Shown: positions 4,486 to 54,709 of the stretch, piece after piece
Position numbering within the stretch: position 1 is the stretch's first letter
Layout of the letters: each line of letters opens with the position of its first letter
NCBI GenBank assembly: GCA_963281255.1
Contig: OY725489.1
Location: 6,262,523 to 6,326,522 of the forward strand
Source of the DNA: Aphrocallistes beatrix
Taxonomy: Eukaryota > Porifera > Hexactinellida > Sceptrulophora > Aphrocallistidae
Reading direction: 5' to 3'
Length of the DNA: 64,000 nucleotides
Position numbers and translations under genes: made by a program
Notes under the pieces: generated by a model
Seen by the model: the letters and a program-made list of their open reading frames with translations, nothing else
What the model was told of the DNA's origin: nothing
The model's database searches: none

Positions 4486-4487
4486 CA

Positions 4488-5170: not shown

Positions 5171-5234
5171 AGACCCACGCAATAACTTTCTACCCTATAG
5201 TAATTTAAATATATACTGGAAAGAATAAATTGAA

Positions 5235-5477
5235 TAATAACCTGAGGATGTAGTTTATCGCCTGGCTAAATCTTTGGTTCTAGGGAATATCCTTGTTGGG
5301 GATAATTACTTTACCTCTCTGAATTTAGATACAAGACTGATGAATGACTTGAAAATTGGATATATTGGAATAATCCGCAAACAACGTCGAGAGGTTCCAA
5401 AGATTTTTAAAAAATGTAAACATAGATCTCTGCATTCTACAAAATTCGTTTGTGCAAATAATCCAATTCTTATATCA
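5235..5477 (+). pseudogene. piggyBac transposase, middle part
   Basis: The translation EDVVYRLAKSLVLGN, then VGDNYFTSLNLDTRL, then IGIIRKQRREVPKIF matches the piggyBac-type DDE_Tnp_1_7 core, including the catalytic aspartate in DNYFTSL. The frame reaches FVCANNPILISY at 5477, where it is cut by a Helitron 3' end. The next expected part of the domain lies at 27361-27700, so the gene was split by an insertion that grew to about 22 kb. The part upstream of 5235 is missing or replaced near the MULE. Confidence 0.75.
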
Positions 5478-6028
5478 TACAAGCGCGCTTCGCTTGCTTG
5501 TGCTGCGCGGCTGGCGGGCACTTCGTGTCCGCCGGAGGCTCCCTTCGGTCGCCTGTGGGTGACATTGGGTAATTATAAGGGAGATACCAACTCTAAATAT
5601 GTCCATCTTAGTTTTAAAATCGATATTACTCGAAAAATCACCTAATTTGTCAATTTAAAATTTTTTGATGCGTAATGACGACGTCATCACAGAGTGATGA
5701 GTCATCATTTTTTATTATAGTTGCATCATATGTGAGGCGTGTTAGGTTAGTATACATATTCTATTAAAACTTCAGCCATCTAGTATCTCCTATAATGGCT
5801 GAGTTATTCCCGAATAACTGTGTTGCTCAACTTTTAAAAATGTGACAATGACGTCATAATTCCATGATGAGTCGACATTTTGCTCTGAACTCAAAACCAA
5901 CTGGAACCATTGCCAAAATACCGCAACATGCCAAAAATCAGCTTTCTGCGGCTAGCAGTTTCTTCAATCAATTCGTTACAGATATATATATATATATATA
6001 CTAAGTATATATATATATATATCTTATA

Positions 6029-6574
6029 TCCTTACTATTAAAACTCGATTATTGTTTGTATATACATATATATATATCTGTAACGAATTGATTGAAGAAA
6101 CTGCCAGGCACAGAAAGCTTATTTTTGGCATGTGGGAGTCTTTTGGCTATGGCTCCAGTAAGTTCTGAGCTCAGACGAAATGTCGAATCATCATGGAATT
6201 ATGACGTCATTGTCACATTTTTAAAAGTTAAGCAACACAGTTATTCGGACATAACTCAGCCATTATAGGAGATAGAAGGCTGAAATTTTAATAGAATCTG
6301 TATACTAACACGTCTCACATATGATGCAACTATCATCAAAAAATGATTACTCATCACTCTGCTATGACGTCATCATTACTTATCTAATTTTTAAAAATTG
6401 ACAAATTTGGTGTTTTTTCGAGTGATATCGATTTTATAAATAAGATGGACATATTTAGAGATGATATATCCCATTTTAATTAACCAATGTCACTTCCAGG
6501 CGACCGAAGGGAGCCTCCGGTGGACACAAAGTGTCCGCTAGCCCCGCAGCGCAAGCAAGCGAACCGCGCTTGTA
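6029..6574 (+). mobile_element. Miniature Helitron, complete copy
   Basis: It starts TCCTTACTATTAAAACTCG, has a TA-rich tract, the conserved segment CGAATTGATTGAAGAAACTG, and a GC-rich 3' end with a hairpin around GTGTCCGC and final GAACCGCGCTTGTA. Length is about 546 bp with no coding sequence. The next element starts immediately after it, head to tail. Confidence 0.7.
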
Positions 6575-6925
6575 CGTATTAAAACTCTAGGATTTTTTGT
6601 TTGTTTGTTTGTCCGAATTGATTGAAGAATTGGTAAGTCGTAGAAATACGAAAATTGGCATGTAGGTGTCAAATGATGAATCTAGGATTAAGTTCAAAGA
6701 TCTAAGCGAAATGTTTACACCTCGCCGAGATAGGTGACAAAATGTGCTGACCAATCAAATTCGATTATTTTATAATGCAAATACATTGGAATAAAATAGT
6801 AGTGACTTATGCATACAATCAAAAGAACTATTTGTGATTGAAATTCATTGGTTTATGTGAGAACCAATCAATCATCAGCCTTTTATAATTCCATTCATTA
6901 TCCAAATTCTTGAACTATAGTCCTA
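6575..6925 (+). mobile_element. 5' part of a second Helitron subfamily
   Basis: It begins CGTATTAAAACTCTAGGATT followed by a run of TTTG units and CCGAATTGATTGAAGAATTG. This closely matches the start of the element at 54710-54880. There is no 3' end; the sequence runs into the next miniature Helitron at 6928. Confidence 0.6.
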
Positions 6926-6927
6926 AA

Positions 6928-7473
6928 TCTTTACTATTAAAATTCGATTAATGTGTATGTGTATATATATATACATATATATATATATATGTAACGAAAT
7001 GATTGAAGAGACTGCCAGGCGAGAAAGCTGATTTTTGGCATGTGGGAGTCTTTTGGCTATGCCTCCAGTAAGTTCTGAGCTCAAGCGAAAATGTCGACTC
7101 ATCATGGAATTAAGACGTCATTGTCACATTTTTAAAAGTTAAGCAACAGAGTTATTCGAGCATAACTCAGCCATTATTGGTGATAGAAGGCTGAAATCTT
7201 AATAGAATGTGTATACTAACATGCCTCACATATTATGCAACTATCATCAAAAAATGATGACTCATCACTTTGTAATGACGTCATCATTACTCATCAAAAT
7301 TTTAAAAATTGATAATTTTGGTGATTTCTCGTTCGATATCAAATATAACAGTGGGACTGATTTATCTAGAGATGTCATCTCCCATCTAATTAATCAATGG
7401 TAACCACAGGCGCCCAAAGGGCGCCTCCGGCGGACACAAAGTGTCCGCCAGCCGCGCAGCGCAAGCAAGCGAA
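6928..7473 (+). mobile_element. Miniature Helitron lacking its last bases
   Basis: This is the same family as 6029-6574, starting TCTTTACTATTAAAATTCG. The 3' region has two back-to-back hairpins, AGGCGCCC-AAA-GGGCGCCT and GCGGACAC-AAA-GTGTCCGC. The terminal CCGCGCTTGTA is missing after GCAAGCGAA. Coding sequence of the autonomous Helitron begins about 70 bp downstream. Confidence 0.65.
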
Positions 7474-7546
7474 TAATTAATATAATTACTTTCTTTAACT
7501 TTTGGATCATAAAATTTTGTTTTGTTCTCTGTTCAATTTGTTTAAA

Positions 7547-8684
7547 AATGCCCCTTCTAAAGAATAAGCGTGGACGTTCTTGCGAGAAACGTTTGATAGT
7601 GATGCTCAGCGTAAGAAATTTGCGCGGTTGAGTGATACTTCGGAGGCAAGGGAAGCCGGTCTTAATCGACAAATGGAATACCAGGCTGCTCATTACGCGA
7701 AGCAGAGCTCTCAGCAGAAAGCTGAGCGACTTGAAGCGCATGTAGAGTACCAGGCTTGCTTATCGCGAGATGCAGAGCTCCCAGGAGAAAGTTTAGCGAC
7801 TTGAAGCGCAGGTAGAGTACCAGGCTGCTTATCGCGAGATGCAGAGTTCCTAGGAGAAAGCTGAGGGACTTGAAGCGCAGGTGGAATACCAGGCTGCTTA
7901 TCGCGAGATGCAGAGCTCTCAGGAGAAAGCTGAGCGGCTTGAAGCGCAGCTGAGGTACCAGACTGCTAGGAATACAAAGCAGAGCTCTTTACAGAGGTCT
8001 GTTCGCCTGAGATATCAGAGAACGTATCAGTTAGCCAAGAGTAGTGGTAAAACTAACTTTACATTCCTTAATATTGCACGTTCTATGCAAGTAACTGAAA
8101 CTTCTGATTACATAATTGACGAATTTTCAGTTGGACGGATGGAATATCACTGTTTACATTATAATGCTAAATTTTGGGAGAATGAAAAACTCTCCACTAG
8201 CACTAAGGATGACTTCAAGTTTTCCATCTGCTGCGTACAAGGGAAAGTGGCTATTCCCGCCTTACCTTCTCCTTCTGAGCTACTGATGCATCTGCTGACG
8301 GCTACTGACAGTCGAGGCAGAGCATTCAGAGAACACATTCGAGCTTATAACTCGGCTCTAGCGTTCGCATCACTCGGCGTTAATCTCGATAAAGAGCTAG
8401 CTAGCGCTAGGCGCGGAGTGTACACATTCCGTATCCATGTTGTTGTGCATCATTACATTGGGCAGCTGACTCCTCGAGTGGGAGAAGCTCCTTCATTTGC
8501 ACAAATTTACATCCATGATGGTACTCCTGAGGGAGAGCTGGAGAATCGCCAGCGGCACCTTGGAGATGCTTGTCTCCCCGAGCTGCGACTGCAGAACTTG
8601 CTGCATGAAGTAAACCCCTACGTCTCTCACTTCAGACAAGGTTTTGATATGATGAGAGACAAGGGGGAGTGGATGTTAGGATGA
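7547..8684 (+). pseudogene. Helitron N-terminal region with coiled-coil repeats and zinc motif
   Basis: The likely start is the ATG at 7547 (MPLLKNKRGRSCEK), after which the frame shifts near 7580 into DSDAQRKKFARLSD. Next comes a glutamine/glutamate-rich repeat region (7674-8010) with in-frame stops near 7795 and 7852, expected to form a coiled coil. From about 8080 the frame is open, with a Cys/His cluster (CLHYNAKFWENEKL ... FSICC) followed by GKVAIPALPSP, matching the Helitron_like_N domain. It ends at a stop at 8682-8684, and homology resumes in another frame. This region precedes the Rep nuclease in animal Helitrons. Confidence 0.75.
7674..8010 (+). repeat. 69 bp in-gene tandem repeat of the Helitron
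   Basis: About five copies of a 69 bp unit encode versions of a 23-residue motif close to EYQAAYREMQSS-EKAERLEAQ. Copies differ by point changes and small indels. The spacing of Q, E and L suits a coiled coil. Confidence 0.75.
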
Positions 8685-9552
8685 CCATCAGAGCTGATGG
8701 TACACCAGATCCGAGACATTATAACGCTCCAACTGCTCCTGAAATAGCAGTCATAATGCCTGGAAATGGCTACACTGAAGGTGTGGCAACCAGGGATATA
8801 GTGCTGCATTTCGTACAGGAAGTTTAAAACGTATCACTGAAACCAATTGTGCATACGATAGCCCCCATCATGTTTTATTGTATCCATCAGGAGATAACGG
8901 CTGGCATCTGGGCATTCCCCACAGTAGCGGTAAAGGCTGTGTCACTGCAATGGAGTTCTACTCTTACCGCCTGATGGTGAGGAGCTCTCTGAACTATCTG
9001 CATCTCTTTGGCAGACTGTTCCACCAGTATATCGTGGACATGTACGCTAAAGTTGAGCAGCAAAGGTTGAACTACATAAAGTTAAACCTGGAAAAGATCA
9101 GAGTGGATCTATACAAAGGCCTGGCTGATGCAGTATCCGCAGGTGACGTCAATCCTATGGCATATGGAAAGAGGATCATACTACCTTCTTCCTTCACTGG
9201 CAGTCCTCGACAGATGTTCGAGCTCTATCAGGACAGTATGTCTATCGTATGGAAATACGGTAAACCTGATTTATTTATTACATTTACATGTAACCCGAAA
9301 TGGGAAGAGATTTCTTCTGCTCTTTTATTGAATCAGAAAGCGACTGACCGTCCAGACTTAACTATAAGAGTATTTAGAATGAAATTGCATGAACTGCTAA
9401 ATGACATCTGCGTTAAGCATGTTCTAGGGAGACCACTTGCGCATGTCTACACCATTGAGTTTCAAAAGCGCGGTATCCCTCATGCACACATCCTGATCAT
9501 CCTATTTGATCAGGATAAACCTAGAGATCCTACTATGTATGATAAGTCATAG
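8685..9552 (+). pseudogene. Helitron Rep domain, HUH part
   Basis: The first 190 bases contain RADGTPDPRHYNAPTAPEI and VATRDIVLHF, then a shifted frame gives RITETNCAYDSPHHVLLYP and an open run from 8878. Key motifs are FTCNPKWEEI near 9290 and RGIPHAHIL near 9470-9495. The two histidines of HAH are the metal-binding HUH residues of rolling-circle Rep nucleases. The frame stops at 9550-9552, while the conserved continuation follows in another frame. The family protein nicks DNA and forms a covalent link at a tyrosine. Confidence 0.85.
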
Positions 9553-11568
9553 TATGTGCTGAGATTCCAGACAAGGATCACAACCCTAGACTTTATCATA
9601 TTGTGAAGTACTGCATGATCCACAGCCCATGCGGCGTATTAAGGAAACATGCTGCCTGTCTGCGCGATGGAAAATGCAGCAAGAAATACCCCAAAGTATT
9701 TTTTCAGTTTACCACAACCGGTAATGACAGCTATCCTATGTACAAACGTTGAAATAACGGCCGTACAGTTATTGTGAATGGAATTCAAGCTGGACAATAG
9801 GTGGGTTGTTCCATACAACCCGTATTTACTTTTGAAATACAATGCTCATATAAATATTGAGATTTGCTCTACCATTAGTGCTGTTAAATACCTCTACAAG
9901 TATGTGTATAAGGGCCATGATAGAGCTATTGTCGAATTTCGCATAGGTGATAGTGCTGGAAGTAGCACTAACAAAGCAACCATGGACGTCGATGAGATTG
10001 TCAATTATCTTGAAGCGCGTTATGTTTCTGCTACTGAATCATGCTACCGACTCTTTGCGCATGAGCTTCATGCTAACCTACCACATGTCATGAGGTTAGC
10101 TCTCCATCTGGAGCATCACCAGCCTGTCGTGTTTACCGGAAATTCTGACTTGCAGGAGGTTCTTCGTAGACTGAGAGATACCACCCTTACAGGATGGTTT
10201 TTGGCAAACCAAAAATACCTTAGTGCTCACAAGCTCACATACACCAACTTCCCTGATGAGTTTGTGTGGAATAAATCCAAACGTGAGTGGACCGAAAGGT
10301 TGAAAGGACATGGTAACATGATAGGTCGTGTCAATTCCGCCCATCCCGGTGAAGGAGAGCGTTACTTCCTCAGAATGCTCCTTAACCATGTAACAGGCTG
10401 TACCTGTTACCAGGATATCCGCACTCTCCCTGATGGCACCGTCTGCACTACCTTTAAGGAGGCGTGCCGTAGACGAGGCCTGTTGGAAGATGACCAGGAG
10501 TCCGATGACTGTCTTACTGAGGCCGCTACCTGTGCTATGCCAGCACAACTGCGACAGTTATTTGTCACCATCCTTCTATTCAATGAGCCATGTGACCCAC
10601 TAGCACTGTGGAATAAGCATAAGGCGTCTCTTGCAGAGGATTTTCTACTTCGTGCGAGAATTCTTTTTCCCAATGTCAAATTGAATGCGTCTGTTTTGAA
10701 TAGTGCGTTACTAGATATTGAGAATCTATATCTAAAGCTTGAAAAATCTTTGTCCGATTATCCCAGAATGCCTATCCCCACTCAAGATAGGAGTCCATTT
10801 GATCTACCGCGCATCATTCAAGATGAGCTTGCTTATGATGCGCCTGATCTAGCCATAATTGTAGACACCAACGTGCCTTTACTGAACCCTGATCAGCTGA
10901 GTGCATATAACTCTATTATGGAGTCTATAGACAATCCTATTGCTGAAAACAAAGCATTTTTTGTTCACGGTCCCGGTGGTACTGGCAAAACATTTTTGTA
11001 CAATACATTGTTAGCTAAGATTCGCTCCCGTGGTGAAATCGCACTAGCAGTGGCTTCATCTGGAATTGCAGCTCTCCTCCTAGAAGGCGGGAGAACTGTT
11101 CATTCTAGGTTTAAAGTTCCTATCACGTTGAATGAACTATCTGTGTGTAATATCACTAAACAGAGTGCTTTAGCCAAAATTATACAGGGTGCTAAGTTTA
11201 TAGTTTGGGATGAAGCTCCTATGATGCATAAACATGCTGCTGAATGTATAGATCGGACATTGAGAGATCTCTGCTCCAATGATCAACCATTTGGCGGGAA
11301 AGTTATTGCATTTGGAGGTGACTTCCGACAAATCCTACCCATCATTAGGCGTGGATCGAGGGCCGAGGTCGTATCAGCCTGCCTTAACAGATCTTCACTT
11401 TGGCACCATGTCAAAGTGATGAAATTGACCATAAATATGCGTCTTCGAATGGATTCATGTCAGGATCATGAAGAGGTGAGTAACTTCTCTGACTTTTTAT
11501 TGAGGGTAGGAAAAGGTAATTAGCCTCATGATGAGAATAACATGATTCATTTAGATTACAAATATGTA
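9553..11568 (+). pseudogene. Helitron Rep C-terminal part and PIF1-like helicase
   Basis: The start overlaps a short broken stretch encoding IVKYCMIHSPCG and KCSKKYPKVFF. The main frame, 9778-11523, begins at an internal methionine and contains AVKYLYKYVYKGHD (9880-9918), which holds the paired catalytic tyrosines. Helicase motifs follow: Walker A GPGGTGKT (about 10970), Walker B IVWDEAP (about 11205), GGDFRQILPI (about 11316) and LTINMRL (about 11425). A stop falls at 11521-11523, yet helicase-like residues (NNMIHLDYKYVV) continue to the Ginger insertion. The protein would unwind DNA 5' to 3' during rolling-circle transposition. Confidence 0.88.
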
Positions 11569-11572
11569 GTAC

Positions 11573-11690
11573 TGTTGCGTGAGATTTCCACACCCGTGAG
11601 ATTCTTACACCCTTGTATTAGTAAACCAGGGATATCCTAGTAGGAGTGTGAGATTTTCACACCCCGTGAGATTCTTACATTCAATTGGGA
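11573..11690 (+). repeat. Ginger A left inverted end with subterminal boxes
   Basis: After the terminal 17 bp, the sequence repeats near-palindromic boxes of the type GTGAGATTCTTACAC, separated by a spacer containing CCAGGGATATCC. The same arrangement occurs in inverse at 18418-18621. These are likely transposase binding sites, by analogy with other cut-and-paste elements. Confidence 0.75.
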
Positions 11691-11701
11691 ATAATATAGT
11701 A

Positions 11702-12603
11702 CTTAGGGCATTCAATTAGTTCGTAACCCTGCAATTATTTTTATTATTGGGCACAGATTTGGCACACTGGACCATACGCATTAAAAAATATCGTGTACAT
11801 AACCTTGGGGGCCCAGCGATCGGGTCTTGGTAATCCTGGGGGAGCACTCCCTTTTGCCACCCATACCTTATTCTGTTGCTTGCGTGGAGGCTCTGAATAT
11901 CTTACCCAAGTTTCATCCCCGGTACATATTTCAGATAATCGCCTCTCATCGCAATGCTCATATTTTTCAAGCAAGTTTTTGTCCATTCTCAATCGGTTCT
12001 CATTTTGAGCCTGTGTTAAGAAATGTGGCATCCAACGTGAACAAATCTTTGACATACCAAGATGCTTTGTCAGAATAGTATGAACACTTCCCGTTGACAA
12101 GTCCAGGGTGCCAGCTAACTGTTCGACTGTAATATGCGGATCAGAATCACACATTTCAGCTACAAGAGCAATATTGTTGGAGGTAGTAGCAGTAACGGGT
12201 TGTCCCATCCGAGGGTCATCTTCTATCGACTCCCTACCTCCACGAAAACGAAGACTCCACTTCTTAACCGTCGATTCCGAACAGGCCTCTTCCCCAAATA
12301 CGGTAACCAAATCTTGGTGAATATTCCTTGGAGTATCGCTGAGTAATGAGCGAATTTTGATGTAGGCTCTCTGCTCAAGTAAAATTTCGCTCGATTTAGA
12401 AGCCATAAATTCTTCTGTGGTTACTAGTATAGTCAATCTTTAGGAAAGCCTAACTTGGAAATTAATCAATCGATTCTATCAAACTAAATTGTTCCTACTA
12501 GAAGAATATATATATAGCTATATAATTGAAAGCAAATAGGGGAGAATTGTGGTTAAACAATATGAGTAAAAGCAAGGGTTACGAACTAATTGAATGCCCT
12601 AAG
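11702..12603 (-). mobile_element. mariner element, internally deleted
   Basis: Inverted ends begin CTTAGGGCATTCAATTAGTT and run for about 30 bp; both sides are flanked by TA. Length is 902 bp, compared with about 1.3 kb for complete mariners. It lies inside Ginger A about 130 bp from that element's left end, so it inserted later. Confidence 0.85.
11744..12436 (-). pseudogene. mariner transposase, N-terminal two-thirds
   Basis: The open frame has 230 codons. Residues 15-65 form the first helix-turn-helix (QRAYIKIRSLLSD ... CSESTVKKWSLRFRGGR). A second helix-turn-helix follows with TVEQLAGTLDLSTGSVHTIL, and the first catalytic aspartate is in TGDETWVRYSEP near residue 170. The frame ends shortly after VMYTIFFNAYG. 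The segments with the second and third catalytic aspartates (normally in HDNA and SPDL contexts) are missing, so the deletion removed the C-terminal third. It cannot be active by itself. Full-length relatives have about 345 residues. Confidence 0.85.
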
Positions 12604-12744
12604 TATTAGTGATACTATGATCGATATATAAACATGAATTGTCCATGTTTGTATAACGAAAATCTACATTGAGCATTACAAACAGAACACAAACCAAACC
12701 AAACTAAACCAAACAAAGACAGAACAGACTAAAGTAGCAGATCA

Positions 12745-15440
12745 AAGCTCGTAAGATGTTTGTTAACTGAAGAATACGAAGCGATCTCGAACTTCCTTAC
12801 TCAAGATGTGTATCCCACATCTGTTCTCGAATCAAAGAAGAAGACGTGTCAGGTAAAGAGGAACTTTCGGGTCAAAGCCTCACAATATGTAGTCGGAAAA
12901 GATGATAAACTTTTCAAGGTAAATGCATAAACTTTGTTCTAACATTTTATCATTACTTTTATTTCTCAACTATCTAGAACAAGTAATAAGTTATAGAAAT
13001 AAAGTCAACTCCGTTTAATCGGGGCAAGTCTCCAGGAACGAAATGGTTCCCATACATAGAAGTTGATATGTACTAAATTTCATCGCTTAATCAGGACAAA
13101 ATATCCGGGAACAAAGTGTCCCGATTAAGCGGAGTCACCTGTATAATGAAACTGTAAATGGTGATGGGGAGAGTCCATAGGCATGGGACACTAATTGAGC
13201 TGAAAGAATTGGATTATATTTTAGCGAGCTACACCATTTTACCTCACATAGATGGGAAATGGAGTCCGTATCCAAATTCTGGCGGCTCGAGCCCTCCACC
13301 ATTGGAGAGGATCCAATTTAATTTATCAATTTCTCTGAGAAACAGTGGTATGGTATGGACCGTATGGTGCATTGTTTCGTATCATAATACATCCCTGTAT
13401 CTATAATCGACGCATTGGTTTAGTGCGTGGTACAATGTACATGACTGATACTTCAAATATCCGAACTGTTAATTTATTACTTTGATAGGTGGAGATAAAC
13501 GGAAACCAATCACATACCTACAAAGTTGTTGGTTCAAATCGAGTTGCAGATGTTATCAAACTGTACCACAACGGTCCTGCACATCCTGGTATCAACAGTA
13601 CAATCAAGCTTGTCAAACAGAAGTATTTCTGGCCAGGAATGAGCAAGGAAATTAGAGAATATGTATGTTCGATTTTCGCATTGCAATTTTTCTTATGGAT
13701 TGTGTAAACAATGTGTCATTTTGAATTTAGTCTTAGAAAAAAATCCTGATTAGTGACTACTCATAGGATTTCAATACTGGAGATTATTCTAGTCAAAACT
13801 ATGAACCTGCACTTTAATATAAACCTACATTTTAACATAAGTACTGGAGTTATACATTTAGACGTACATCAAAGAACCTTATTTTGATAATTAACACATT
13901 AATTTCTTTTTGAAAGTTTTAATGATTTACTATTATCACCTGACTTTGATAATCAAGTGTGTTATTTGAATTTAGATGAAACCAGATTAGTTACTCAATA
14001 CCACTTGTTCAACAGTGATAAATGCCTTTCATTCAAGTCATTCCTTATTACAAAAATATTTTCTCATTCACGCAATCGTTTGTAATTGTAACTATCAAAT
14101 AATTCCTGACAAATATCTCGCAACTTGAAGATGACTTGTGAAATCGGTAAACATCTTGTTATTGCATTCCATTACTAATTTGATCGTATGTCTTCTTTAG
14201 GTCAAAACTTGTCATGGTTGTCGAACTGAAGCCGCACTACCACCGCAACCTCAAAGAAAACTGCATCCAATCCCTCCCCCAGATCAACCCTGGAAACATA
14301 TTTGTATTGACCTTGTTTGCGATTTACAAGGTACTAACAAAGATTGGTATAAACATCTCCTGGTAACAACATGTTACCTCAGTAAATTCTCTGCAGTCCG
14401 CCCTTTGAAAACAAAAACAAGTAGAGAAGTTTTGACACAACTGGAGAGTATTTATTTTACTCTAGGAGTACCTCAGGTTATCCAGCATTATCAAGATCCT
14501 GAGTTTGTTAGCAAGGCATGTGGCTCTTTGCAAGGAAAACCAATTCCAAAAAGTATTTTTTAATTGTAAAGTTAAATTAATATACGTGTATATCATTAGG
14601 AGTTTCAAGAATTTCACAGGAAATTGGGAGTTGATAATCGCAAGACAACTGCTTACCATCCAGAGAGTAATGGTCTCGTCGAAGCACATAATAAAATAAT
14701 TAAAACCAAGCTCCATAAAATGGTAAAAGAAACAGGAGAAGAATGGCCGAGCAAATTACAAGCTGCTGTTCTGGCTGCAAATACATGTTGGAAGAGATCA
14801 ACAGATTACTCACCATTTACCTGATGTATGGCAGAGAAGCTAACTGTATTGAACTATTTTCTCATACTAATATACGTGTTGAAATTGAAGATATTGAGGA
14901 TCTAAAGTTCTAAACAATATGCAAATTCTAACCAATCCAGATGAAGGAGCTGACACATTCTCCCACAACTCCGAAAATCCTGATGAATGGATATGCCCAC
15001 TAATGGAAGCTCGGTCTATATCACGGACAAATACTCATGCTAACATCTTGAAAGAGCAATTAAAGCAAAAACATGTATTTGATAGTAAAGTGAAGAAAAA
15101 CAGGTAATTTTGCATTAATAGAAGGTAATTGTAGCTGTTTTAATGGGATATCTTTCAACAGTTCGAAAATCAATCAAGGAGATCCAATTCCTTTTTCGGA
15201 ATATACGAAAAGCCAAGAAAATGCCAGGAACTAAGACAGAACCTAAATATATTGGGCCTGTTATTGCAACTGAAGTGACGGATAGTCATGCACTAGTTGT
15301 CAAGGAAGGCAGTGACTCTAAAAGCAGAAAAATTCCGCTTCACCTCGCTAGGCCCTACTTTCCACGGTCTGAAGCCAAACTGACAAAGCGTAAAAACAGT
15401 GATCTCCCAACCAACGTTCAAACAAAGAAATACAAGGTAA
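12745..15440 (+). pseudogene. Ginger A integrase-type transposase, spliced
   Basis: A first exon near 12750-12918 encodes LTEEYEAISNFLTQDVYP and ends at a GTAAAT donor. The exon at 13491-13667 holds the H2C2 zinc finger (HPGINSTIKLVKQKYFWPGM). The exon starting near 14206, after a TTTAG acceptor, begins the rve core (CIDLVCDL, then VIQHYQDPEF). The stretch 14620-14823 has HPESNGLVEAHN with the catalytic glutamate, and 15180-15437 has a GPY-like module (YIGPVIATEVTDSHALVV). The gene is broken in several places. In Ginger elements this protein cuts and joins DNA in the manner of retroviral-type integrases; the element has no LTR. Confidence 0.8.
13002..13141 (+). mobile_element. Degenerate pogo-type miniature element
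   Basis: It runs from AGTCAACTCCGTTTAATCGG to the complement-like end TTAAGCGGAGTCACCTG. It is a diverged copy of 23094-23285 lying in the presumed first intron of the Ginger A gene. Confidence 0.55.
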
Positions 15441-15504
15441 TATAATTATTTTATCATGTACTGACAAAAATTTTGCAAAATTTAAAATTATATTATAAAT
15501 AGGG

Positions 15505-17326: not shown

Positions 17327-17765
17327 GGCGACGATCACTTTTATACGTTACTACATATTCGCATCGCAACCCTTATAAACAATTATCGTTGGAGAGGAAC
17401 TGGATGGCTAGTGGGGGAGAACCAAGGCCGTAGGAGCAAGTGTGGTAGGTGCGGTGGCTGTCGCACAATTATTTTTGTCCACCGCACCAGAATGGGAATT
17501 CATGCTCTCATTCCGACTAATTTCAATTCTGGAAATATTTGCTAACTACAGCCTTGGAGGAGGAGGCGATCATTTTCAATTAAATTACTATTTACTCGCA
17601 TCGCACTTCTTGTAAATCTATTCGCTGGAGAGGAATGGGATGGCTATTGGGGAGGAGGAGGCCATCACAATTATACCAAATTACTATTTACTCGCATCGC
17701 ACTCCTTGTAAATATATTCGCTGGAGAGGAATGGGATGGCTATTGGGGAGGAGGAGGCCATCATA
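17327..17765 (+). repeat. 96 bp tandem repeat in Ginger A
   Basis: Units contain TTACTCGCATCGCA, CGCTGGAGAGGAA and GATGGCTATTGGGGAGGAGG and recur with spacing of about 96 bp at 17565, 17660 and 17756. An earlier unit at 17327-17425 is separated by about 125 bp of other sequence. A frame of 105 codons over the region is a by-product of the repeat. Related single units lie at 46850-46910 and 60500-60560. Confidence 0.7.
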
Positions 17766-18417
17766 TCTAAAATTAAGCACTAATTGGTGAATGCACACCG
17801 CTCTGTAAACCTAAGTCTGGAGAAACCGAGATGTACATGTACAGAAGAAGAATGCACAGAAACTAGTAATATTTATCTATACTTTCCCATGTTTGAATGT
17901 TGCTTTTATTCGAACTAATTTATTATTATTTATATATTAGTCATCAATTCAAGACATTTGGCTATTAGTTCTTAAAGAAAGCGTTACATGCTTTGGAAGT
18001 AGACGATGTTAGTATCATTTTTAAGGGCAGAGTCATTGTACGTAATTCATGGCTGCATGTTTAAAATTTAAGATTTATAAACAAATTTGAATCCAGATTA
18101 ATCAACAAGGGCATCACCAAACATGAAGCTAAAAATAAAAATTAGTTGAAACACTTGAAACCATAATATCAAAGGAATGAGAACATAATTATATGGTGAC
18201 CTTGATCTCAGGATATCATATAGAAGAGACGCAATTGGTATCAAAACAAACATCTTAAATCTACTGTGAATAGGTACATAGTATTTTCGTGAATAATTTA
18301 AGCTATGGTAAAGAGGAAGGCATTGTTATTGAAACAGTTACTCGCGAACATCATTCAATGTCAGGAAATAGAGAGTATTGAATATTATTAGCATTGCCTA
18401 AGTTTATTTGAGTGTGG

Positions 18418-18621
18418 GGGATGTAAATCTCACGCTACGTAGGTATTCCTGCCTTATCAATTGAGTTGTAAGAATCTCACGCTACTATAATTTCCCTGGT
18501 TTACTAATATAAGGGTGTAAGAATCTCATGGGTGTGGAGATCTCACGCTCCTACTAGGATATCCCTGGTTTACTAATACAAGGGTGTAAGAATCTCACGG
18601 GTGTGGAAATCTCACGTAACA
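18418..18621 (-). repeat. Ginger A right inverted end with subterminal boxes
   Basis: Three rounds of GTAAGAATCTCAC-type boxes with CCTGGTTTACTAATA spacers end in the terminal CGTAACA. This end has one more repeat unit than the left end, whose array is cut short by the mariner insertion. Confidence 0.75.
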
Positions 18622-18625
18622 GTAC

Positions 18626-19322
18626 GTGGTGAGTCTATTGCAGACTTAGCCACTGCTATATATGGTAAATTAAAGAACACTTTAATGATCGTGATTACGT
18701 CACGCCACGTATTATGATGTCTCCTAAAAATGAGACAACTGAAAAGATAAATAAATACGTGATTGATCAACTTCCTGGTGAAGCAAAGGTATTACTGAGT
18801 GCAGACTCAGTAGATATCAGTCAGGCAGCTATGTATCCTACTGAATATCTTAATTCTATTACGCCTACTAGCTTGCCTCCACACCGTCTCTACCTTAAGG
18901 AGTATGCGTCAATTATACTCTTGCGCAGTCTCGATCCCACGAATGGGATGTGTAATGGCACCCGATTACTAATTAGAGCATTTTTAAACAATGTTATAGA
19001 TACCTAAAATTGCCACAGGTATCCATTGTGGCAAACGAGTGTTCATTCCTCGCATTATAATGACTCCTTCTGAAACAGATTTTCCATTTGTGCTCAGACG
19101 GAAGCAGTTTCCCATTCGCCCTGCCTACTGTATAACAATTAACAAAGGGCAGGGGCAGAGTCTAGAATCTGTTGGTATATTTTTACCATCTCCTGATGCC
19201 ATATTCAGTCATGGGCAATTGTACGTTGCCCTGAGTCGAGTTAAGACCCTAAGGGCTTGAAAGTCATGGTTTGCGGAGCAAACTATCCCACTTCGGGTGG
19301 CGTTTGGATTAGGAATGTGGTC
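18626..19322 (+). pseudogene. Helitron helicase, C-terminal part
   Basis: Immediately after the GTAC duplication the Helitron frame resumes with VRGESIADLATAIYG. A shift follows into DRDYVTPRIMMSPKNETTEKIN and, after a further break near 19005, [15 protein letters not shown] and [18 protein letters not shown]. These match helicase motifs V and VI of PIF1-like enzymes; the arginine of the LSRV motif acts in ATP hydrolysis. Past a shift at about 19256, the sequence [12 protein letters not shown] continues to the second Ginger insertion at 19323. Reading resumes at 24223. Confidence 0.85.
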
Positions 19323-19465
19323 TGTTTCGTGCGTTTTTAACTCACTAGTATTACTGGACCAGGGATATCGTGTGATTTTAACTCACTAGTATTACTGGAC
19401 TAGGGACATCGTGTGATTTTAACTCACTCTGTGTGATTCTAACACACTTTATTACTGGGACAGGT
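19323..19465 (+). repeat. Ginger B left inverted end with subterminal boxes
   Basis: Two copies of a unit containing CTAGTATTACTGGACCAGGG are followed by GTGTGATTTTAACTCAC, a near-palindrome. A last diverged copy ends near 19465. The core CCAGGGATATC is shared with Ginger A. Confidence 0.75.
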
Positions 19466-19663
19466 TATCTTCTGCTGTGTGATTTTAACTCAATGAATTA
19501 TAGGAATACCTGCTATTGTATAATATGACTGAAGATGTAAAATTTGTTCTAAATTGTTTAGTATTTTTGATAATTTTCTCGTCATGTCTCACAAAGTAAC
19601 TCCATTATTTAATTAAACCCATTTTAATAAAGGCCAGTACGGTTCAATGACAAAGTATCCCTA

Positions 19664-20880
19664 CAGGGTGGCCGAACGAAATTGAGACAAATATATAGAC
19701 GTATCAACTATATTAGCTATAAAATTGAGAACTTCATTGTTTGAACAATAATGAATGAAATAGAGAAGAGAAAAGTTGTTGAGACCTATTTTCACAATGG
19801 ACAGAGTGCGTCTCAAATCTGGAAGCTTGTAAAAGATCTCGGAATATCACGAGCCACAGTCTACAGACTCGTTAAAAAGTACCAAAATGGTGGAAGTAGC
19901 GACAGGAAATTGGGTCTGGGGGTGAACTGTCAAATATGAACCGTAGTGCGAAGAGAAATATTGCTGATCGTCTGCGCGCAATCCAGCTCAGTCAGTCAGA
20001 AAAATCGCGAGAGAGATGGAATTCCAAAATCCACGGCTCAAGATATCGTCCGAAGGGACTTGAAACTGAGAGCAAGGAAGAAGGAAAAGAAACAAGCGCT
20101 CACAAGTTCCCAAAAGGCAAAAAGAGAGATCCAGAACTATTCGTCGATCGTTGGACCGCGACTCTCACAGACGAGTCTTTTTTTAGCGATGAAAAATATT
20201 TCTTGATGGATCAGCCCCTTAATCGCCAAAAGGATTGTTTACATCAAAGAAGGGACAAAGAAGCCCCTGAATAAGAAAACGATCATGGAAAAGAATAAAT
20301 TTAGCCGAAAACTCATGGTCTGGGCAGGGGCAGCCTATACCTAAAAACAGATCTGGTTTTCTTCAGGCAAGGAGAGACTGAATGCGGATCGGTACCAAAG
20401 AGCAGTTTTAGCTCCTTTTGTCGTTCCCCTTTGTCGTCAGCACAACCTCGCTTTCCAACAGGACTCCGCCCTTGCCACACGGCAACCAGTCGCAGAATTT
20501 TTGAGGACGGAAAATATCGATTTTTTGGACGAAATAAGATTGGCCGTCAAACTCCCCTGATCTCAATCCCCTTGACTACGGTATATGGGGTGAGCTGGAG
20601 TAGGAGGTGTATCGTAAGCCCTCAAAGAATTTGCAGGAACTGGAGAGCAAAATTCGACGAGCTTGGGAGAAATTGGATCTGTCCGAAGTGAACCGGTGCA
20701 TTGATCGATTTAAGGGACGATTGCGACAATGTGAAGATGCAAAGGTAGCCATTTCGAATGAAAATCTTTTGTAATAAACCATATACCGTAACTAGTTTTT
20801 GTTAAGAGTCTAAACTCAATTTAGGAATATACATACCTACGTTATTTTTAAATTTGTCTCAATTTCTTTCGGCCACACTG
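19664..20880 (+). mobile_element. Tc1/mariner-superfamily element, DDxD type
   Basis: Inverted ends begin CAGGGTGGCCGAACGAAATT (left) and CAGTGTGGCCGAAAGAAATT (right, complement), flanked by TA; length is 1217 bp. Inside, 19751-19936 encodes a helix-turn-helix (SQIWKLVKDLGISRATVYRL). Then, across changing frames, come ESFFSDEKYFL with the first catalytic aspartate, AFQQDSAL with the second, and LRYMG-like remains of the third region. At least three frameshifts and stops separate these pieces, so the transposase is dead. It sits inside Ginger B. Confidence 0.78.
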
Positions 20881-20947
20881 TATTCATCCATACAAACCAA
20901 CTTGTGATGAGATTAATTACTTGCTTAAGGAATATGAGCTCATAAAC

Positions 20948-21224
20948 TAGTGGTTCCCAACGGGGGCGTTTGCTTGCCTCAGGGGTCGCTGTGGAGGAAG
21001 GGGGCGGTAAATGAGAATGTATTGTAACACATGTAAACATTGAGAATCACACCAATGTCAAGGATCACATGTTCCAACTTCCATTACTACAAGTACTTAG
21101 AATCTTAGTAAACATATGATAATCACGAATTAAAAACTGGCTTAATAAATAATGAAGTAGAGGGCCTTATGAAAGTTGCAAGCACCTTAGGGGGCGTTAC
21201 AAAGGGAGAGGTTTTGAAACACTG
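20948..21224. mobile_element. hAT miniature element with 8 bp duplication
   Basis: The ends AGTGGTTCCCAAC and CAGTGTTTCAAAAC (complement) resemble hAT terminal repeats. The flanks carry a perfect 8 bp duplication TCATAAAC at 20940-20947 and 21225-21232. Length is 277 bp with no coding sequence. Confidence 0.82.
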
Positions 21225-22029
21225 TCATAAACGATCCATTCCTGTGTATGTATGATATGTTAGAAGATTTATAATTCTTTAATGTATTTTTGAAACCCCT
21301 TTCACTAATAAACATTATATGACAATGTAAGAGTCAGATTTTATTATTTATTGAGTAAATATAAGCATTCATTGTAAAGATATCTCAAAAGAGTAACATT
21401 ATTGATAGTAATATTATTAAGAATATGCTGAATGTACAAGTATAAGTATTTGACAATTCAATAAAATTGAAATGAAAAAAAAGTTGAAAACAAGTGCGTG
21501 ATGGCTTCTCCTCCCCTCAAGCCATCCCTTTCCTCTCCAGATTTTGTCAGATGCACTGTATCTGTTTGTGTTTTGATAATGTATAGATGGAATGTACCAT
21601 AGTTTGGACGAATTTTATTTGAACAGCGAGTTGGTATATTCCAGCTTTAGAGTAACGTGTGTAATGTTGTGTGAGTCTACAGTCAATTCACCAGACAAGC
21701 CTCAACTCAGATGGTTACCCAAGTGAGTAGATGTTTTAAAGCATTCATTCAGGTCAAGGGCAACATCACACAAGGGTTGAGCCATGTAAGTGTGTATTGT
21801 CGACAGTCTATCTCTTATAGTACATCCATTAAACATCAAACTCCAGATGATTCAGATGATTACTCCAAGTGAAATGTTAAAGCATTTTAGTCGAGGTACC
21901 GCCGTGCAAATGTACTCACTATTTTCGCGCCGCGCGAGTTTGTTCCACAGTCGGGTTATTATTGATTTATCAAACAAGCAGACAAAATGATTAACTCAGG
22001 TGTACTTCACATCCTTATTCTTGTGTTTC

Positions 22030-23440
22030 GTTTCGGCTTAGACTCGTCAGTTGCGCTGCCTTTCTCGCAATACACTTGAGATGGTTGAGTGGTGGAAAAG
22101 TGTTACTTTGGAAGTGATTCAGTCGGTAGAGCACGCGAAGAACAATCGTAAAGGCAGGAGGTATTAAGGTGATTTTAGTGGTAGACAGGTGGTATGTGTC
22201 TAATCAATGTTGATAATTTGGGCGGATTTGTCATCTTTATATAATGTTGGTAGGTAGCAGTCCTACGGTCATCTACTGCTAATTTTCGGTGAAATTCTTG
22301 AAATTCCTAATTCAGGAAGGAAAGAATCTGAGAAAATATAATCTTAGAAAATTTCTAATAAAAAGGGAAATATACCTTGCTGACAAACTCAGGTCCTTGA
22401 TCATGCTGGATAACTGATCTGGGGAGGAATTGGTTGCAGTTTCCTTTGAGGTTGAGGTGGTAAATTAGCATCAGTCTGACAGTGATGACAAGTTTTTTTC
22501 TGAAGAGAGAAGATTGGTACGTCATAACACAGGATGTTTACCGAAAGTCAACATAGTATCAGTTTCTATATGACAAGTCATTGAACATGACTTGAGTCAA
22601 AAGTTCAAATTTTGTTCAAGTCATGTTCAATTACCTAATAGCTATCTATGTATTCAATTTTGAATTCTATACTTAGTGGGTCGTCTGAGAAAACAAGAAT
22701 TTATGTTCTCGCGCATAAACTACGCGATGCGAGTACAAGCAAATTTTGATAGCATCGCAACAAAACAAACCATTAATTAATAATCTCAAAAATACATCTG
22801 CAGACAATATAATTTAGCTACAGTTGGCTCTCGTGAAATACAAACACTTGTGGACAAATGAAATGCGTTCATATAATCCGAGATCCGTATTAATCGGAGT
22901 GATTGGAATGTCTATTCATTTGCGAGTGTGGGGGATAAATAGTTCGTTCGTCTTATCCGGAGTTACAAATTTACAAGCCTACTATACGCGTAATGTTCCA
23001 AGTAAAACAAATGTGTAATAAAATACAAAGATCAAATAATTAACTCAATACTTACATATTTTTGATATCTTCATTCATTCCTGGTCAAACATACAGTCGA
23101 CTCCGCTTAATAGGGTCACATCGGTCAGAGGACATTTTGCCCCGATAAAGCGGAGTACCCTATTAACCGAAAGTATTTTGTATTAGCTTCTATGTGTGAG
23201 AGCTATTCCGGTCCAGCCAAAAGTGGCCCGATTAATTAAGCGGTTGACCCGATTAACCAGTGACCCTATTAACCGGAGTCGACTGTATTTCTGTCCGATA
23301 GCTTTTATGGTAGCGTTGATGCCAGGGTGCAAGACTGTCAGGACCGTCATGGTACAGTTTGAGTCTTCCTCTTCAACTTGACCTGAACAAACTACTTCGT
23401 ATGAAGTTACTTTATTTCCACTGATGATCACCTACTCAAA
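22030..23440 (-). pseudogene. Ginger B transposase remnants
   Basis: On the minus strand, 23286-23430 encodes VIISGNKVTSYEVV and HPGINATIKAIGQKY, the zinc-finger exon. The block at 22380-22500 matches the part of the Ginger A core that encodes VIQH-DQ-PEFVS and the proline-rich lead to it. The block at 22030-22095 matches in reverse the sequence following the OTU domain of Ginger A (16100-16170). Intervening exons are missing. A pogo-type miniature element sits in the zinc-finger exon. The gene is broken and heavily reduced. Confidence 0.7.
23094..23285 (+). mobile_element. pogo-type miniature element
   Basis: It is 192 bp long, with ends CAGTCGACTCCGCTTAATAG and the inverse CCGGAGTCGACTG, flanked by TA. 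Most of the element is a palindrome built from variations of CCCGATTAAGCGG. It is inserted in the zinc-finger exon of Ginger B. The TA duplication and ends suit the pogo/Tigger branch of Tc1/mariner. Confidence 0.82.
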
Positions 23441-24077
23441 ATTAATTAATATTAATTAAAATTATTGCCAAATGTCATCATACATACAAACTACTGTATA
23501 TCAGTATAGCCGCGCTCCTAGAAACCAGAGATGCCAACTCTCATGGAATCACGGAGTTTACAAAAATCTTACGGTAGCATGATCTCACAAGCAATTCCCC
23601 AATCTAAGAATTTTCTTATTTCAGCCCCAAATTAATCTCATATAAATCGCTAAGGGGGAGGGCGGCATTTTATTAGCAATTTTGTGATTATTCAATGAAG
23701 CCATGATGCAGCAAACAAGTTTTCAATCAATAAATTTGTTCCGAATAAATTATCAATAAAAAAACAACCTTGAATATCATGTTATCCTCTCCAATCTGAT
23801 ATTGCGAAGTCTTTACCCGAAAGTTCTTCTTGGCGTGACATGTCTTCTTTGACTCGAGAACGTACTTTGGATACACATTCGTGTAAGAAAGTCTGAGATT
23901 GCACTGTACTCGTCTGTTTTCATCTTCGCGAATTACAATGCTGTTACTGATACGTATTGTGAAAAATTCAGCTTTGAAAAAGTCTGTTTTGGTTGAATTA
24001 GTACATCAAACAATCAACAATTTATATTATCAACTAAAAATACACTATGCAGAATATACCTGTCCCATTAATAAAGT

Positions 24078-24218
24078 GAGTTAGAATCACACAGAGTGAG
24101 TTAAAATCACACAATGTCCCTAGTCCAGTAATACTAGTGAGTTAAAATCACACGATATCCCTGGTCCAGTAATACTAGTGAGTTAAAATCACACGGTGAG
24201 TTAAAAACGCACGAAACA
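24078..24218 (-). repeat. Ginger B right inverted end with subterminal boxes
   Basis: It mirrors the left end: GTGAGTTAAAATCACAC boxes alternating with CCCTGGTCCAGTAATACTAG spacers, then the terminal CGCACGAAACA. Confidence 0.75.
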
Positions 24219-24222
24219 GGTC

Positions 24223-25050
24223 TACCGTGAGGTATTCCAAAACCATAATATCAATCCATCCCTTAATGATACCATGGATCTTTCTCAAATGGATATATCA
24301 TTGAGTGAAATTTCATTTTCTACTGCAGATTTTAGGAGTCGCTCTGAGGATGACAGGGGTCCAGCTCCCAGTCAACCCTCAATTCTTATTAGAGCAGCAG
24401 TATCTCTAACAGGTACTGTCAATCGCTTCTCCCTGAACATGAGGACTCAGTTAGTCATAAGTATTGACATGGATCCTGAGTTGATTGCAGACTATGAGAA
24501 CACTTTTGTGAATATTATTGATAGCTGTTTAGGACTATATTATAGATCCCTACGAATATGGCTATCACAAATGTTTGGGGACACTTTAAATCTGCGTCCT
24601 GTCATTGGGGACTGTAATTGTCTTGACCGTTCTTTATCCCATATCATATTTGGTACTGAGAAACATTACGACGATTTGAAATCAAAATTGATTACAAAAT
24701 TCCGCAATAGGCCAGAACACACCTTAAATGTCATGCACATGTCAGGCATTACAAGTGAAGAGGAGTTGGACGATCATTTTCCGCTAATCAACATTCCGAA
24801 CGAATGGGGTACAAATGTAGAATTAGCTATTTTAGGTGCTCTAGCGCATCTAGATATTTTAGTGATCAAATGCAACTAATAATGATCACCAGTTTTGGAG
24901 AGTGGATACCATTTATACACACAATATTGTGCCCACTATTTCTCTGTGTGACCCTACCTTTAATGGTCAGAGGTTGGGTGTAGTACTACATCGACTACAC
25001 AACAGCGACATGCTATACCATTTCGATCTATTTTATTACAGTAGCTCATA
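24223..25050 (+). pseudogene. OTU domain at the C-terminus of the Helitron
   Basis: After the GGTC duplication the Helitron frame continues with YREVFQNHNINPSLNDT into the open run 24274-24879. The OTU motif is VIGDCNCLDRSLSHIIFGTE near residues 110-130 of that run; the usual DGNC is changed to DCNC but the catalytic aspartate and cysteine positions are kept. WGTNVELAILGALAHLDI matches the central sheet. A stop falls at 24877-24879, but in a shifted frame the homology goes on to HNSDMLYHFDLFY near 25040, which holds the expected catalytic histidine. OTU-bearing Helitrons are known in animals; its job is not established. Confidence 0.8.
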
Positions 25051-25970: not shown

Positions 25971-25974
25971 TATG

Positions 25975-26375
25975 GAACGAATGTGTACTAATGTGCGCTC
26001 TCTTACATACAGATATACCACGAGATGGATGTGCACTCTCTTACATTGCAGATACAACACGAGACGAATGTGCGCTCTCTTACATGCAGATACACCACGA
26101 TACGAATGTGCGTCTCTTACATGCAGATACACCACGAGACGGATGTGTACTCTCTTACATGCAGATACACCACGAGACGAATGTGCGCTCTCTTACATGC
26201 AGATACACCACGAGACGGATGTGTACTCTCTTACATGCAGATGCACCACGAGACGGATGTGTACTCTCTTACATGCAGATACACCACTAGACGGATGTGT
26301 ACTCTCTTACATGCAGATGCACCACGAGACGGATGTGTACTCTCTTACATGCAGATACACCACGAGACGGATTTC
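25975..26375. repeat. 38 bp minisatellite
   Basis: About ten copies of a 38 bp unit containing ACTCTCTTACATGCAGATAC and CACCACGAGACGGATGTG. Because 38 is not a multiple of three, all three forward frames stay open and give repetitive frames of 99-151 codons; I do not regard them as genes. Confidence 0.88.
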
Positions 26376-26545
26376 TCAAAACTCACCATACAAAACACAT
26401 TTCTAAGTCATAGAATCGAAAAATATTTTAAAATCATTGAAAATATTCGAATTACAATCTCTAAGGACCATAATAACTAAGATCGTTTGTGTATAAGAAA
26501 TTTTATACCTAATGAAGCTTGTAACAGAACTTATGTGTCACCCTG
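26376..26545 (-). mobile_element. Partial copy of the foldback element at 33363-34133
   Basis: It matches the right arm of that element and ends in GTGTCACCCTG followed by TA. The left part is absent where the minisatellite begins. Confidence 0.65.
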
Positions 26546-26699
26546 TATATCAATGAAAATCTGATCAATGGAAATCTGTTCACAATTTACTTGATTCAGA
26601 GAGTATTTAAGTAATCTTACAGTAATTTTTCGAATTAAATACATTAATTTAATGAGATAAGAATCCCATCATATCCAACAGATATTTTCGATTACTTAG

Positions 26700-26870
26700 A
26701 GTGATGCAATTGATGGAGCTACACGATCACGTACAGTGTTGCAACAGATGGAGCTACTCGATCACTTACAGTGTTGCAACAGATGGAGCTACTCGATCAC
26801 TTAGTGTTGCAACAGATGGAGCTACTCAATCACTTACAGTGTTGCAACAGATGGAGCTACTCGATCACTG
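26700..26870. repeat. 35 bp minisatellite
   Basis: Nearly five copies of a unit containing GATGGAGCTACTCGATCACT and ACAGTGTTGCAACA. One copy is 4 bp shorter. Confidence 0.85.
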
Positions 26871-27132
26871 ATATCAAACCAGACGTGTTATTATTTGATC
26901 ATTAATATTGATATATTTATTTCTATAATTTTCTGATAAATCATTATAATCATATAAAGACAAATAAATAAAATATCAACTCATAAATTAGTTTAGTAAT
27001 TGCTAATAAATGGAATCAAGATATGGAACGAAAAGATAATCTAACATGATAGTTCAATTTCACCCTACTTAATGTGGCCATTAATTAGTGAGAGTAATCA
27101 ATATTAAATTATTGCGTAACAAATTAAAGAGT

Positions 27133-27209
27133 AAAACTAGGCGCCCGCAAGTTGATTCTACGGACAAGCAGTGTCTGTAAGCCGCGCAGCACAAGCAAAC
27201 GAACCGTGC
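27133..27209 (+). mobile_element. Helitron 3' end, isolated
   Basis: AGGCGCCCGCAAG leads into a hairpin around GACAAGCAGTGTC, then GCCGCGCAGCACAAGC and GAACCGTGC. It could be the 3' end of the interrupted autonomous Helitron or of a lost miniature copy. Confidence 0.5.
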
Positions 27210-27324
27210 AAACTATTTAGAGATGTTATCTCCTATATAATTAATCAATGGTGACAACAGGCGCCTCCGGCGGACACAAAGTGTCCGCCAGCCGCGCAGC
27301 GCAAGCAAGCGAAGCGTGCTTGTA
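27210..27324 (+). mobile_element. Helitron 3' part, second in tandem
   Basis: It matches the last 115 bp of the miniature family, including the hairpin GCGGACAC-AAA-GTGTCCGC and the final GAAGCGTGCTTGTA. It directly follows the previous 3' end and abuts the 5' end remnant of the outer minus-strand element. Confidence 0.6.
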
Positions 27325-27360
27325 TATAATTATACATTAATCGAGTTTTAATAGTAAGGA

Positions 27361-27700
27361 TATGGCGAAAAAATCGAAGAATATCTTATTGTTAACATAT
27401 GTGCACAATTCTGTTGAAATTTCTAGTGGTTTTAAGTCCAAACCGATTATTATTTTAGACTATAATCGTGGGAAAGCTGGGGTAGATTTGTTAGATGAAT
27501 TGGTTGGATAATTTAGAAGTTATTGACCTACCAGGCGTTGGCCCTGCGTGATTTTCTATAATTTGACAGGATTTTTGTGTTATGCGGCCTACGTTTTGTT
27601 TTGTATAAAATTTCAATATTATCCTATAGTAAAGAAGAAAAGAGAAAGCAATTTCTTTATTTATTAGGAAAACAGCTTGTAAATCCCCAAATTTGACAAA
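27361..27700 (+). pseudogene. piggyBac transposase, C-terminal part
   Basis: The translation KSKNILLLTYVHNS, then KPIIILDYNRGKAGVDLLDE, then RRWPCVIFYNLTGF and FLYLLGKQLVNPQI fits the region after the catalytic core of piggyBac proteins; the aspartate in DYN is the last catalytic residue. Two in-frame stops occur, around 27508 and 27520. It directly continues the part that breaks off at 5477. The C-terminal zinc-binding tail is not attached here. Confidence 0.8.
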
Positions 27701-54690: not shown

Positions 54691-54709
54691 AGATTCATCA
54701 ATTAGTTTA

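Follow-up and report, generated by a model that had tools for sequence, protein, structure and literature searches.

Canonical Helitrons end in CTRR, as far as the accessible text of two reports goes (PMC5148889, PMC4067079). The accessible part of one of them describes Helitrons inserted in Helitrons and tandem copies in Fusarium oxysporum, as well as multi-terminus Helitrons in Fusarium (PMC5148889). For Ginger1 elements (Bao, Kapitonov, Jurka 2010), target duplications of CCGG or CCGT/ACGG are given, and Ginger and Helitron proteins with OTU domains are already published, in the available portion of the same source (PMC2836005). A nest of such elements inside a piggyBac transposase gene is described here, in a stretch of 64,000 nucleotides of the sponge Aphrocallistes beatrix, hereafter the window (contig OY725489.1; G000:C2:6262523-6326522). 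Relatives were searched for in the genome assembly, whose 28 contigs add up to 100.5 Mb. Nesting of transposons and Helitron self-insertion are in print, as are proteins of both Gingers and Helitrons with an OTU domain; the locus is judged a well-resolved new example, in which two points are worth following: a Ginger that arrived loaded and TA landing sites that a Helitron family supplies to itself.

The nesting order is piggyBac, mini-Helitron X, autonomous-type Helitron A, Ginger#1 and mariner, that is five levels with exact ends at every step. A five-level nest had been proposed in an earlier reading made from the letters of the window (the sequence-only reading), and it is borne out. All the elements named there are present, with small corrections of coordinates; two further mini-Helitrons in Helitron A (6029-6572 and 6928-7473) had been overlooked. 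The nest was very probably built by stepwise transposition, with X entering piggyBac, A entering X, the mini-Helitrons B and C and the two Gingers entering A, mariner entering Ginger#1, and Ginger#2 arriving pre-loaded. The outer levels consist of the following features.

5241 to 5479, plus strand: piggyBac transposase, left piece, where the C-terminal half of the protein starts (Pfam, PDB 6x67, relatives)
27361 to 27658, plus strand: piggyBac transposase, right piece, with in-frame stops (tblastn against L096, L097, L098)
5480 to 6021, minus strand: mini-Helitron X, 3' part, with 3' terminus CTTG at 5480 (family copies, terminus, A|T target)
27323 to 27360, minus strand: mini-Helitron X, 5' end (TCCTTACTATTAAAACTCGATTAATG...), cut off from the remainder by Helitron A (family copies L002, L003, L007)
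6022 to 27322, plus strand: Helitron A with all inserts, 5' TC at 6022 and 3' CTTG at 27322 (5' end in L085, L087, L089; 3' end in L091-L094)
6029 to 6572, plus strand: mini-Helitron B within the 5' end of A (absent from the 5' ends of three A relatives)
6928 to 7473, plus strand: mini-Helitron C within the 5' leader of A (empty in L085, L087, L089)
8779 to 9549, plus strand: Helitron A Rep piece (Helitron_like_N, Pfam 9.4e-60)
9778 to 11520, plus strand: Helitron A helicase piece (Pfam PIF1 3e-80; best match Helraiser, PDB 7lcc, E 7.5e-112)
18669 to 19257, plus strand: Helitron A helicase continuation between the Gingers (Pif1_2B and UvrD_C_2-like, Pfam 1.2e-14 and 0.0017)
24205 to 24876, plus strand: Helitron A helicase C-terminus and OTU-like domain past Ginger#2 (Pfam OTU 0.0066, below cut-off)

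The alignments indicate that the two piggyBac pieces are one gene, interrupted after 5479 and continuing at 27361, because they match adjacent residues of the same relatives and the frame is intact across the joined flanks. The left piece matches Pfam DDE_Tnp_1_7 at 4.7e-6, residues 343-402 of the piggyBac transposase PDB 6x67 (E 4.7e-5) and residues 2-80 of the relative L096 (53% identical). As the right piece on its own has no Pfam family match, its membership in piggyBac follows from its relatives. In tblastn, the left piece aligns to residues 2-81 and the right piece to residues 81/82-180 of the frames L096-L098. L096 is the best relative for both halves, and the three relatives rank alike or nearly so for each half. 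When 5479 is joined to 27361, the reading frame is continuous and no letters are gained or lost. Two separate piggyBac elements are ruled out by the adjacent residues in the same three relatives, so that the origin of the two parts from different elements, which the sequence-only reading had named as a possible objection, failed: they are consecutive stretches of one gene. That reading had placed the resumption correctly at 27361 and the break slightly too early, at 5477. The gene is old and damaged, and only the C-terminal part of the protein is left; no N-terminal part was found among the ten upstream plus-strand open frames scanned, minus-strand and shorter frames lying outside the scan. 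A DNA search of the genome yielded no second copy, and a protein search yielded 30 other places with 37-63% identity, the best well-covering one having 53%.

The gene is interrupted by mini-Helitron X, which measures 580 bp when its minus-strand parts, 27360-27323 and 6021-5480, are joined via a TA microsatellite. Both ends are the same in genome copies, with at least 42 family matches among the matches listed (40 of the 4170 first-look candidates were scored). X sits at A|T without target duplication. Helitron A was likewise inserted at A|T without duplication, within the TA microsatellite that X carries close to its 5' end. The 5' terminus of A was confirmed in three relatives and its 3' terminus in four. 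A hairpin with a 9-bp stem, GGCGGACAC/GTGTCCGCC, is predicted about 35 nt from the 3' end. Since the window copy and L091-L094 all have CTTG at this end, in place of the canonical CTRR, the identity of A as a Helitron rests on its protein and its target. The helicase segment at 18669-19257 contains one frame change and is contiguous in relatives. The sites of B and C are empty in the three fetched 5' regions of A relatives (L085, L087, L089); C lacks the final 9 nt or so of its 3' end. Within A, tandem repeats of about 69 bp (7674-7990) lie in the open frame ahead of Rep, and their number varies among copies. Minisatellites of 38 bp and 35 bp occupy 25987-26416 and 26700-26870 in the 3' part; between them, relatives carry about 1 kb of other sequence, which is replaced in the window copy.

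X and A might instead have entered piggyBac as one unit: in rolling-circle replication, template switching or read-through could have produced one composite Helitron whose 5' end is inverted. The genome has 165 instances of this head-to-head arrangement, the 29 inverted spacers inspected include four repeats (25 distinct), so that some arrangements may be copied whole, and multi-terminus Helitrons are known from Fusarium, in the accessible text of the report (PMC5148889). Against this, the pieces at 27360-27323 and 6021-5480 together make up one ordinary mini-Helitron with the length usual in the family, each piece supplying one end, and the majority of the spacers differ. In L085, L089 and L091-L092, A is flanked by other DNA, a sign of separate mobility that is still compatible with a composite transfer at this particular locus. 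In L087, as in the window, an A-type copy lies next to the 5' end of a mini-Helitron. On balance a composite origin is considered unlikely, and the entry of A into a resident X is preferred.

The first of the two Gingers within A, and the elements that it contains, are as follows.

11573 to 18621, plus strand: Ginger#1, 7,049 bp, ends TGTTG/TAACA, terminal inverted repeat (TIR) of about 107 bp (target duplication GTAC at 11569-11572 and 18622-18625)
13489 to 15442, plus strand: Ginger#1 integrase pieces, H2C2, DDE core and GPY/F-like tail (Pfam H2C2 2.9e-13)
15503 to 15864, plus strand: broken OTU-like domain of Ginger#1 (52-53% identical to the OTU domain at 54247-54711, which Pfam confirms)
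11702 to 12603, minus strand: mariner in Ginger#1, TIR of about 47 bp, TA target (Pfam HTH_48 4.7e-6)
13002 to 13141, strand not assigned: pogo-like miniature element in Ginger#1 (present in sibling copies)
16569 to 16717, strand not assigned: pogo-like miniature element in Ginger#1 (74% similar to the Ginger#2 pogo-like element)

The Ginger sites were checked in 24 non-window Helitron loci, fetched from 45 places. The Ginger#1 site was empty in 18 of these and filled in none, the others being cut off, rearranged or short of the site. The integrase was recognized by Integrase_H2C2 (2.9e-13), with rve (0.0034) and rve_3 (0.015) both below cut-off; the position which we take to be that of the second catalytic Asp reads Tyr. 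A GPV-containing stretch lies where GPY/F is expected, as judged by eye and without Pfam match, and the OTU-like domain has no direct Pfam match. The mariner has a Mos1-type helix-turn-helix (HTH_48, 4.7e-6) and a Transposase_1 match below cut-off (7.3e-4). Six other Ginger#1 copies, among them two with the same outer flanks, have its site empty, and no copy has it filled. The pogo-like element at 13002-13141 is present in all four covering siblings (L038, L039, L041, L047, with just one side covered in L039), and none of these has an empty site. From these comparisons, only the mariner looks new to the window copy of Ginger#1 or its close parent. Two Ginger#1 copies (G000:C12:2542180-2549514 and G000:C2:5777708-5785047) have the same 8-bp outer flanks in opposite orientation, and a third Ginger#1 end, at C2:5557872, has one of those flanks; the DNA around the two copies seems to have been duplicated along with them.

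The second Ginger carries passengers that it shares with other copies.

19323 to 24218, minus strand: Ginger#2, 4,896 bp, with integrase remnant on the minus strand (target duplication GGTC at 19319-19322 and 24219-24222)
19664 to 20880, plus strand: Tc1-like passenger, TIR 32 bp, TA target (shared sites in Ginger#2 copies)
20948 to 21224, strand not assigned: hAT-like miniature passenger, 8-bp duplication TCATAAAC (shared sites in Ginger#2 copies)
23094 to 23285, strand not assigned: pogo-like miniature passenger, TIR 26 bp, TA target (shared sites in Ginger#2 copies)

The Ginger#2 site was empty in 14 of the 24 Helitron loci and filled in none, the others again being cut off, rearranged or short of the site. 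Across the joined Ginger#2 flanks, the helicase frame of A reads through (...NVVYREVFQ). The Tc1-like element, which has a TA target and 32-bp TIR and matches Pfam families for the helix-turn-helix only and none for DDE, occupies an identical position in five further Ginger#2 copies (C1, C6, C16, C2:6.73 Mb, C13), and its site is empty in seven. The hAT-like element, with its 8-bp duplication and ends TAGTG/CACTG, for which alignment gave no TIR at the termini, is present in two other copies (C16, C13) and missing from seven; in three more, the fetched DNA stops about 16 bp into it and the total length fits its presence. The pogo-like element (TA target, 25 of 26 TIR positions matching, no coding part) is present in five other copies and empty in two. 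The pogo family name of the miniature elements is our presumption. Because the three passengers occupy the same positions in other copies and are missing from further relatives, the comparison indicates that they were already inside Ginger#2 before it landed in A. In the window copy, part of the integrase has been lost. Four other composites with both ends measure 4,938, 4,926, 4,929 and 4,633 bp, the shortest having an internal deletion of about 280 bp. As judged from these copies, Ginger#2 is a non-autonomous composite that was copied with its passengers to at least four other places having both ends.

Target duplications had been announced in the sequence-only reading for the Ginger, mariner and hAT steps, and all were found (GTAC and GGTC, TA, and the 8-bp TCATAAAC, respectively). 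Its further claim that the nesting directly shows in which order the elements arrived does not hold, as the Tc1-like, the hAT-like and one pogo-like element occupy the same sites in other Ginger#2 copies. If each inner element had reached this locus on its own, so that nesting order equalled arrival order, the real nesting and target duplications would be explained, and mariner, B and C all fit. The shared positions of the three Ginger#2 passengers, missing from further relatives, together with the presence of the pogo-like element at about 13.0 kb in each of the four Ginger#1 siblings that extend over it, make this highly improbable, and separate arrival in place of every inner element is ruled out by the passengers common to Ginger#2 copies. 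The locus is thus a worked case where nesting alone misleads on the order of arrival, three inner elements having ridden in with a multiplying Ginger; nesting-based dating of insertions needs sibling copies as a check.

The alignment to unbroken relatives that had been suggested revealed empty sites for both Gingers, B and C. Element ends, target duplications, empty sites and passengers common to copies are direct observations. Empty sites in relatives and reading frames running across joined flanks exclude chance as the origin of the nest, and for the same reasons a misassembly is very unlikely. Fusion of contigs without relation might be feared as the DNA of the locus is strongly repetitive; this is barely credible, as the junctions coincide with exact biological ends, matching duplications and unbroken reading frames, and the locus lies inside a 7.6-Mb contig.

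In the proposed stepwise sequence, X, a 580-bp rolling-circle element on the minus strand, would first have entered the piggyBac transposase gene at A|T without duplication. The protein-coding Helitron A, on the plus strand, would then have entered X at its TA microsatellite, a short way in from the 5' end. A would subsequently have received the mini-Helitrons B and C and the two cut-and-paste Gingers, each of the latter with a 4-bp GNNC duplication. Finally, the mariner would have entered Ginger#1, Ginger#2 having arrived loaded with the Tc1-like, hAT-like and pogo-like elements. It is presumed that X, B and C were moved by the protein of Helitron A or a related one, and Ginger#2 in trans by an intact Ginger. 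Divergence from the sibling majority fits the nesting order for X (7.4%), A (1.6-2.7%), Ginger#1 (1.4-2.6%) and Ginger#2 (0.5-1.1%).

Several observations weigh against this sequence. The left flank in piggyBac is unique in the genome as DNA, and therefore offers no empty site for the insertion of X. B and C, though inside A, diverge by 6.5% and 11.4% and break the age order; they probably derive from older, divergent subfamilies. Past B, A restarts with four letters that have no counterpart in relatives. Finally, the flanks are unequal in two of 12 candidate pairs of Ginger ends (Ginger#2 on C6; Ginger#1 ends separated by 12 kb, on C8). Divergence was dropped as a clock, being unreliable and contradicted by B and C. 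The Ginger#2 composite on C6 (G000:C6:963928-968853) has the flanks GACC and GTAC and is perhaps recombined. In the other ten pairs, the 4-bp flanks are identical and all read GNNC; two of these pairs have outer flanks in common and do not count as independent cases.

The junction of X and A is of a type that recurs in the genome. The 19-nt Helitron 3' end with its T has 4179 exact copies. ATATATA directly follows 517 of them (12.4%), versus 0.21-0.85% of the A|T sites in the window and the fetched DNA, a transposon-rich sample. CGCGCTTG followed by TATATA has 1180 copies. The inverted mini-Helitron 5' motif follows within the allowed gap in 165 and the same-orientation inner motif in 112, so that 277 of the 1180 (23%) TATATA-flanked 3' ends adjoin 5'-end motifs of another family member, possible double matches included. 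Controls with reversed patterns all gave 0, and about 2-5 inverted cases were expected by chance versus the 165 observed. Because 25 distinct spacers were counted among the 29 inverted matches listed, most inverted cases would not be simple copies of one nest, and some may be. Among TA tracts in 305 kb sampled, 10 of 14 of at least 12 bp and 14 of 45 of at least 8 bp adjoin the mini-Helitron 5' motif. The window junction itself, whose 3' end reads CGTGCTTG, lies for that reason outside the 165. L093 contains head-to-tail Helitrons, in which the 5' end of a further A-type copy, TCTTATATATTAAAAC, comes directly after a CACTTG 3' end.

These counts suggest, with the balance of evidence about even, that the family makes its own landing pads, through a TA microsatellite about 38 nt inside the mini-Helitron 5' end, a preference for A|T within TA, and self-insertion in both orientations. 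Mechanistically, it would be simplest if the elements preferred A|T within TA repeats and the family itself supplied the longest of these; self-recognition is not required. Targeting of TA repeats that the elements themselves supply probably enlarges such nests. No description of this pattern was found in the literature on Helitron self-insertion, microsatellite landing sites and passengers, in which subscription papers were mostly outside reach. The genome offers hundreds of natural insertions that can be used to test the targeting by Helitrons of their own microsatellites.

Further elements lie outside the nest. Upstream, at 4487-5171, lies an element whose inverted ends contain subrepeats of about 14 bp (GACAATTCATCRC) and enclose part of a MULE transposase (Pfam MULE 4.9e-5, below cut-off); a target duplication was not recognised for this element. 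Downstream, a long near-perfect palindrome occupies 28800-30300, its arms (29528-29760 and 29768-30000) being 98% complementary and 7 nt apart. Two Tc1-like transposase frames lie on the minus strand, at 36207-37256 (DDE_3 6.5e-11) and at 52649-53633 (judged by eye). A third Ginger-like element is found at 54173-58133 on the minus strand, with an OTU domain (8e-9) and an integrase-like open frame. It appears to be met at about 54717 by a Helitron 5' end resembling that of A, and there may be a similar nest there.

Compared with canonical Helitrons (Helitron1/Helraiser), Helitron A is alike in its Rep-helicase, 5' TC, A|T target, lack of duplication and predicted hairpin near the 3' end, at about 35 nt where canonical elements have a closer spacing of 10-12 nt. 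It differs in its CTTG instead of CTRR ends and in the OTU-like domain past the helicase. An OTU-like domain 3' of the helicase is reported for Helentrons and some animal Helitrons, and A has the same layout. As to self-insertion, the accessible text on Fusarium oxysporum holds one nested non-autonomous example (PMC5148889), versus hundreds of TA-microsatellite matches in this genome. (TA)n repeats are also the target of the MuTAnT MULEs of Medicago; according to the portion available, those are genomic repeats (PMC4486113), whereas the long TA tracts sampled here are mostly Helitron-borne. DINE-1 elements and Helentrons are likewise abundant, short, non-autonomous rolling-circle elements bearing a microsatellite; in the accessible parts of the two sources, they insert at TT and carry GTCY-type repeats (PMC4067079, PMC2374699), in contrast to the A|T target and the TA repeat of the present family.

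With Ginger1, as far as the accessible text describes it (PMC2836005), Ginger#1 shares a Gypsy-integrase-like transposase with H2C2 and an OTU domain, and both Gingers of the nest share 4-bp duplications. The ends of Ginger#1 (TGTTG/TGTTA) fit TGTNR and its TIR is within 40-270 bp, whereas Ginger#2 starts with TGTTT, outside TGTNR, and is a composite with foreign passengers. Because the target duplications of both are GNNC, and not CCGG or CCGT/ACGG, Ginger#1 and Ginger#2 are filed as Ginger1-like instead of strict Ginger1 members. The genome offers a Ginger1-like group with a GNNC target in place of CCGG.

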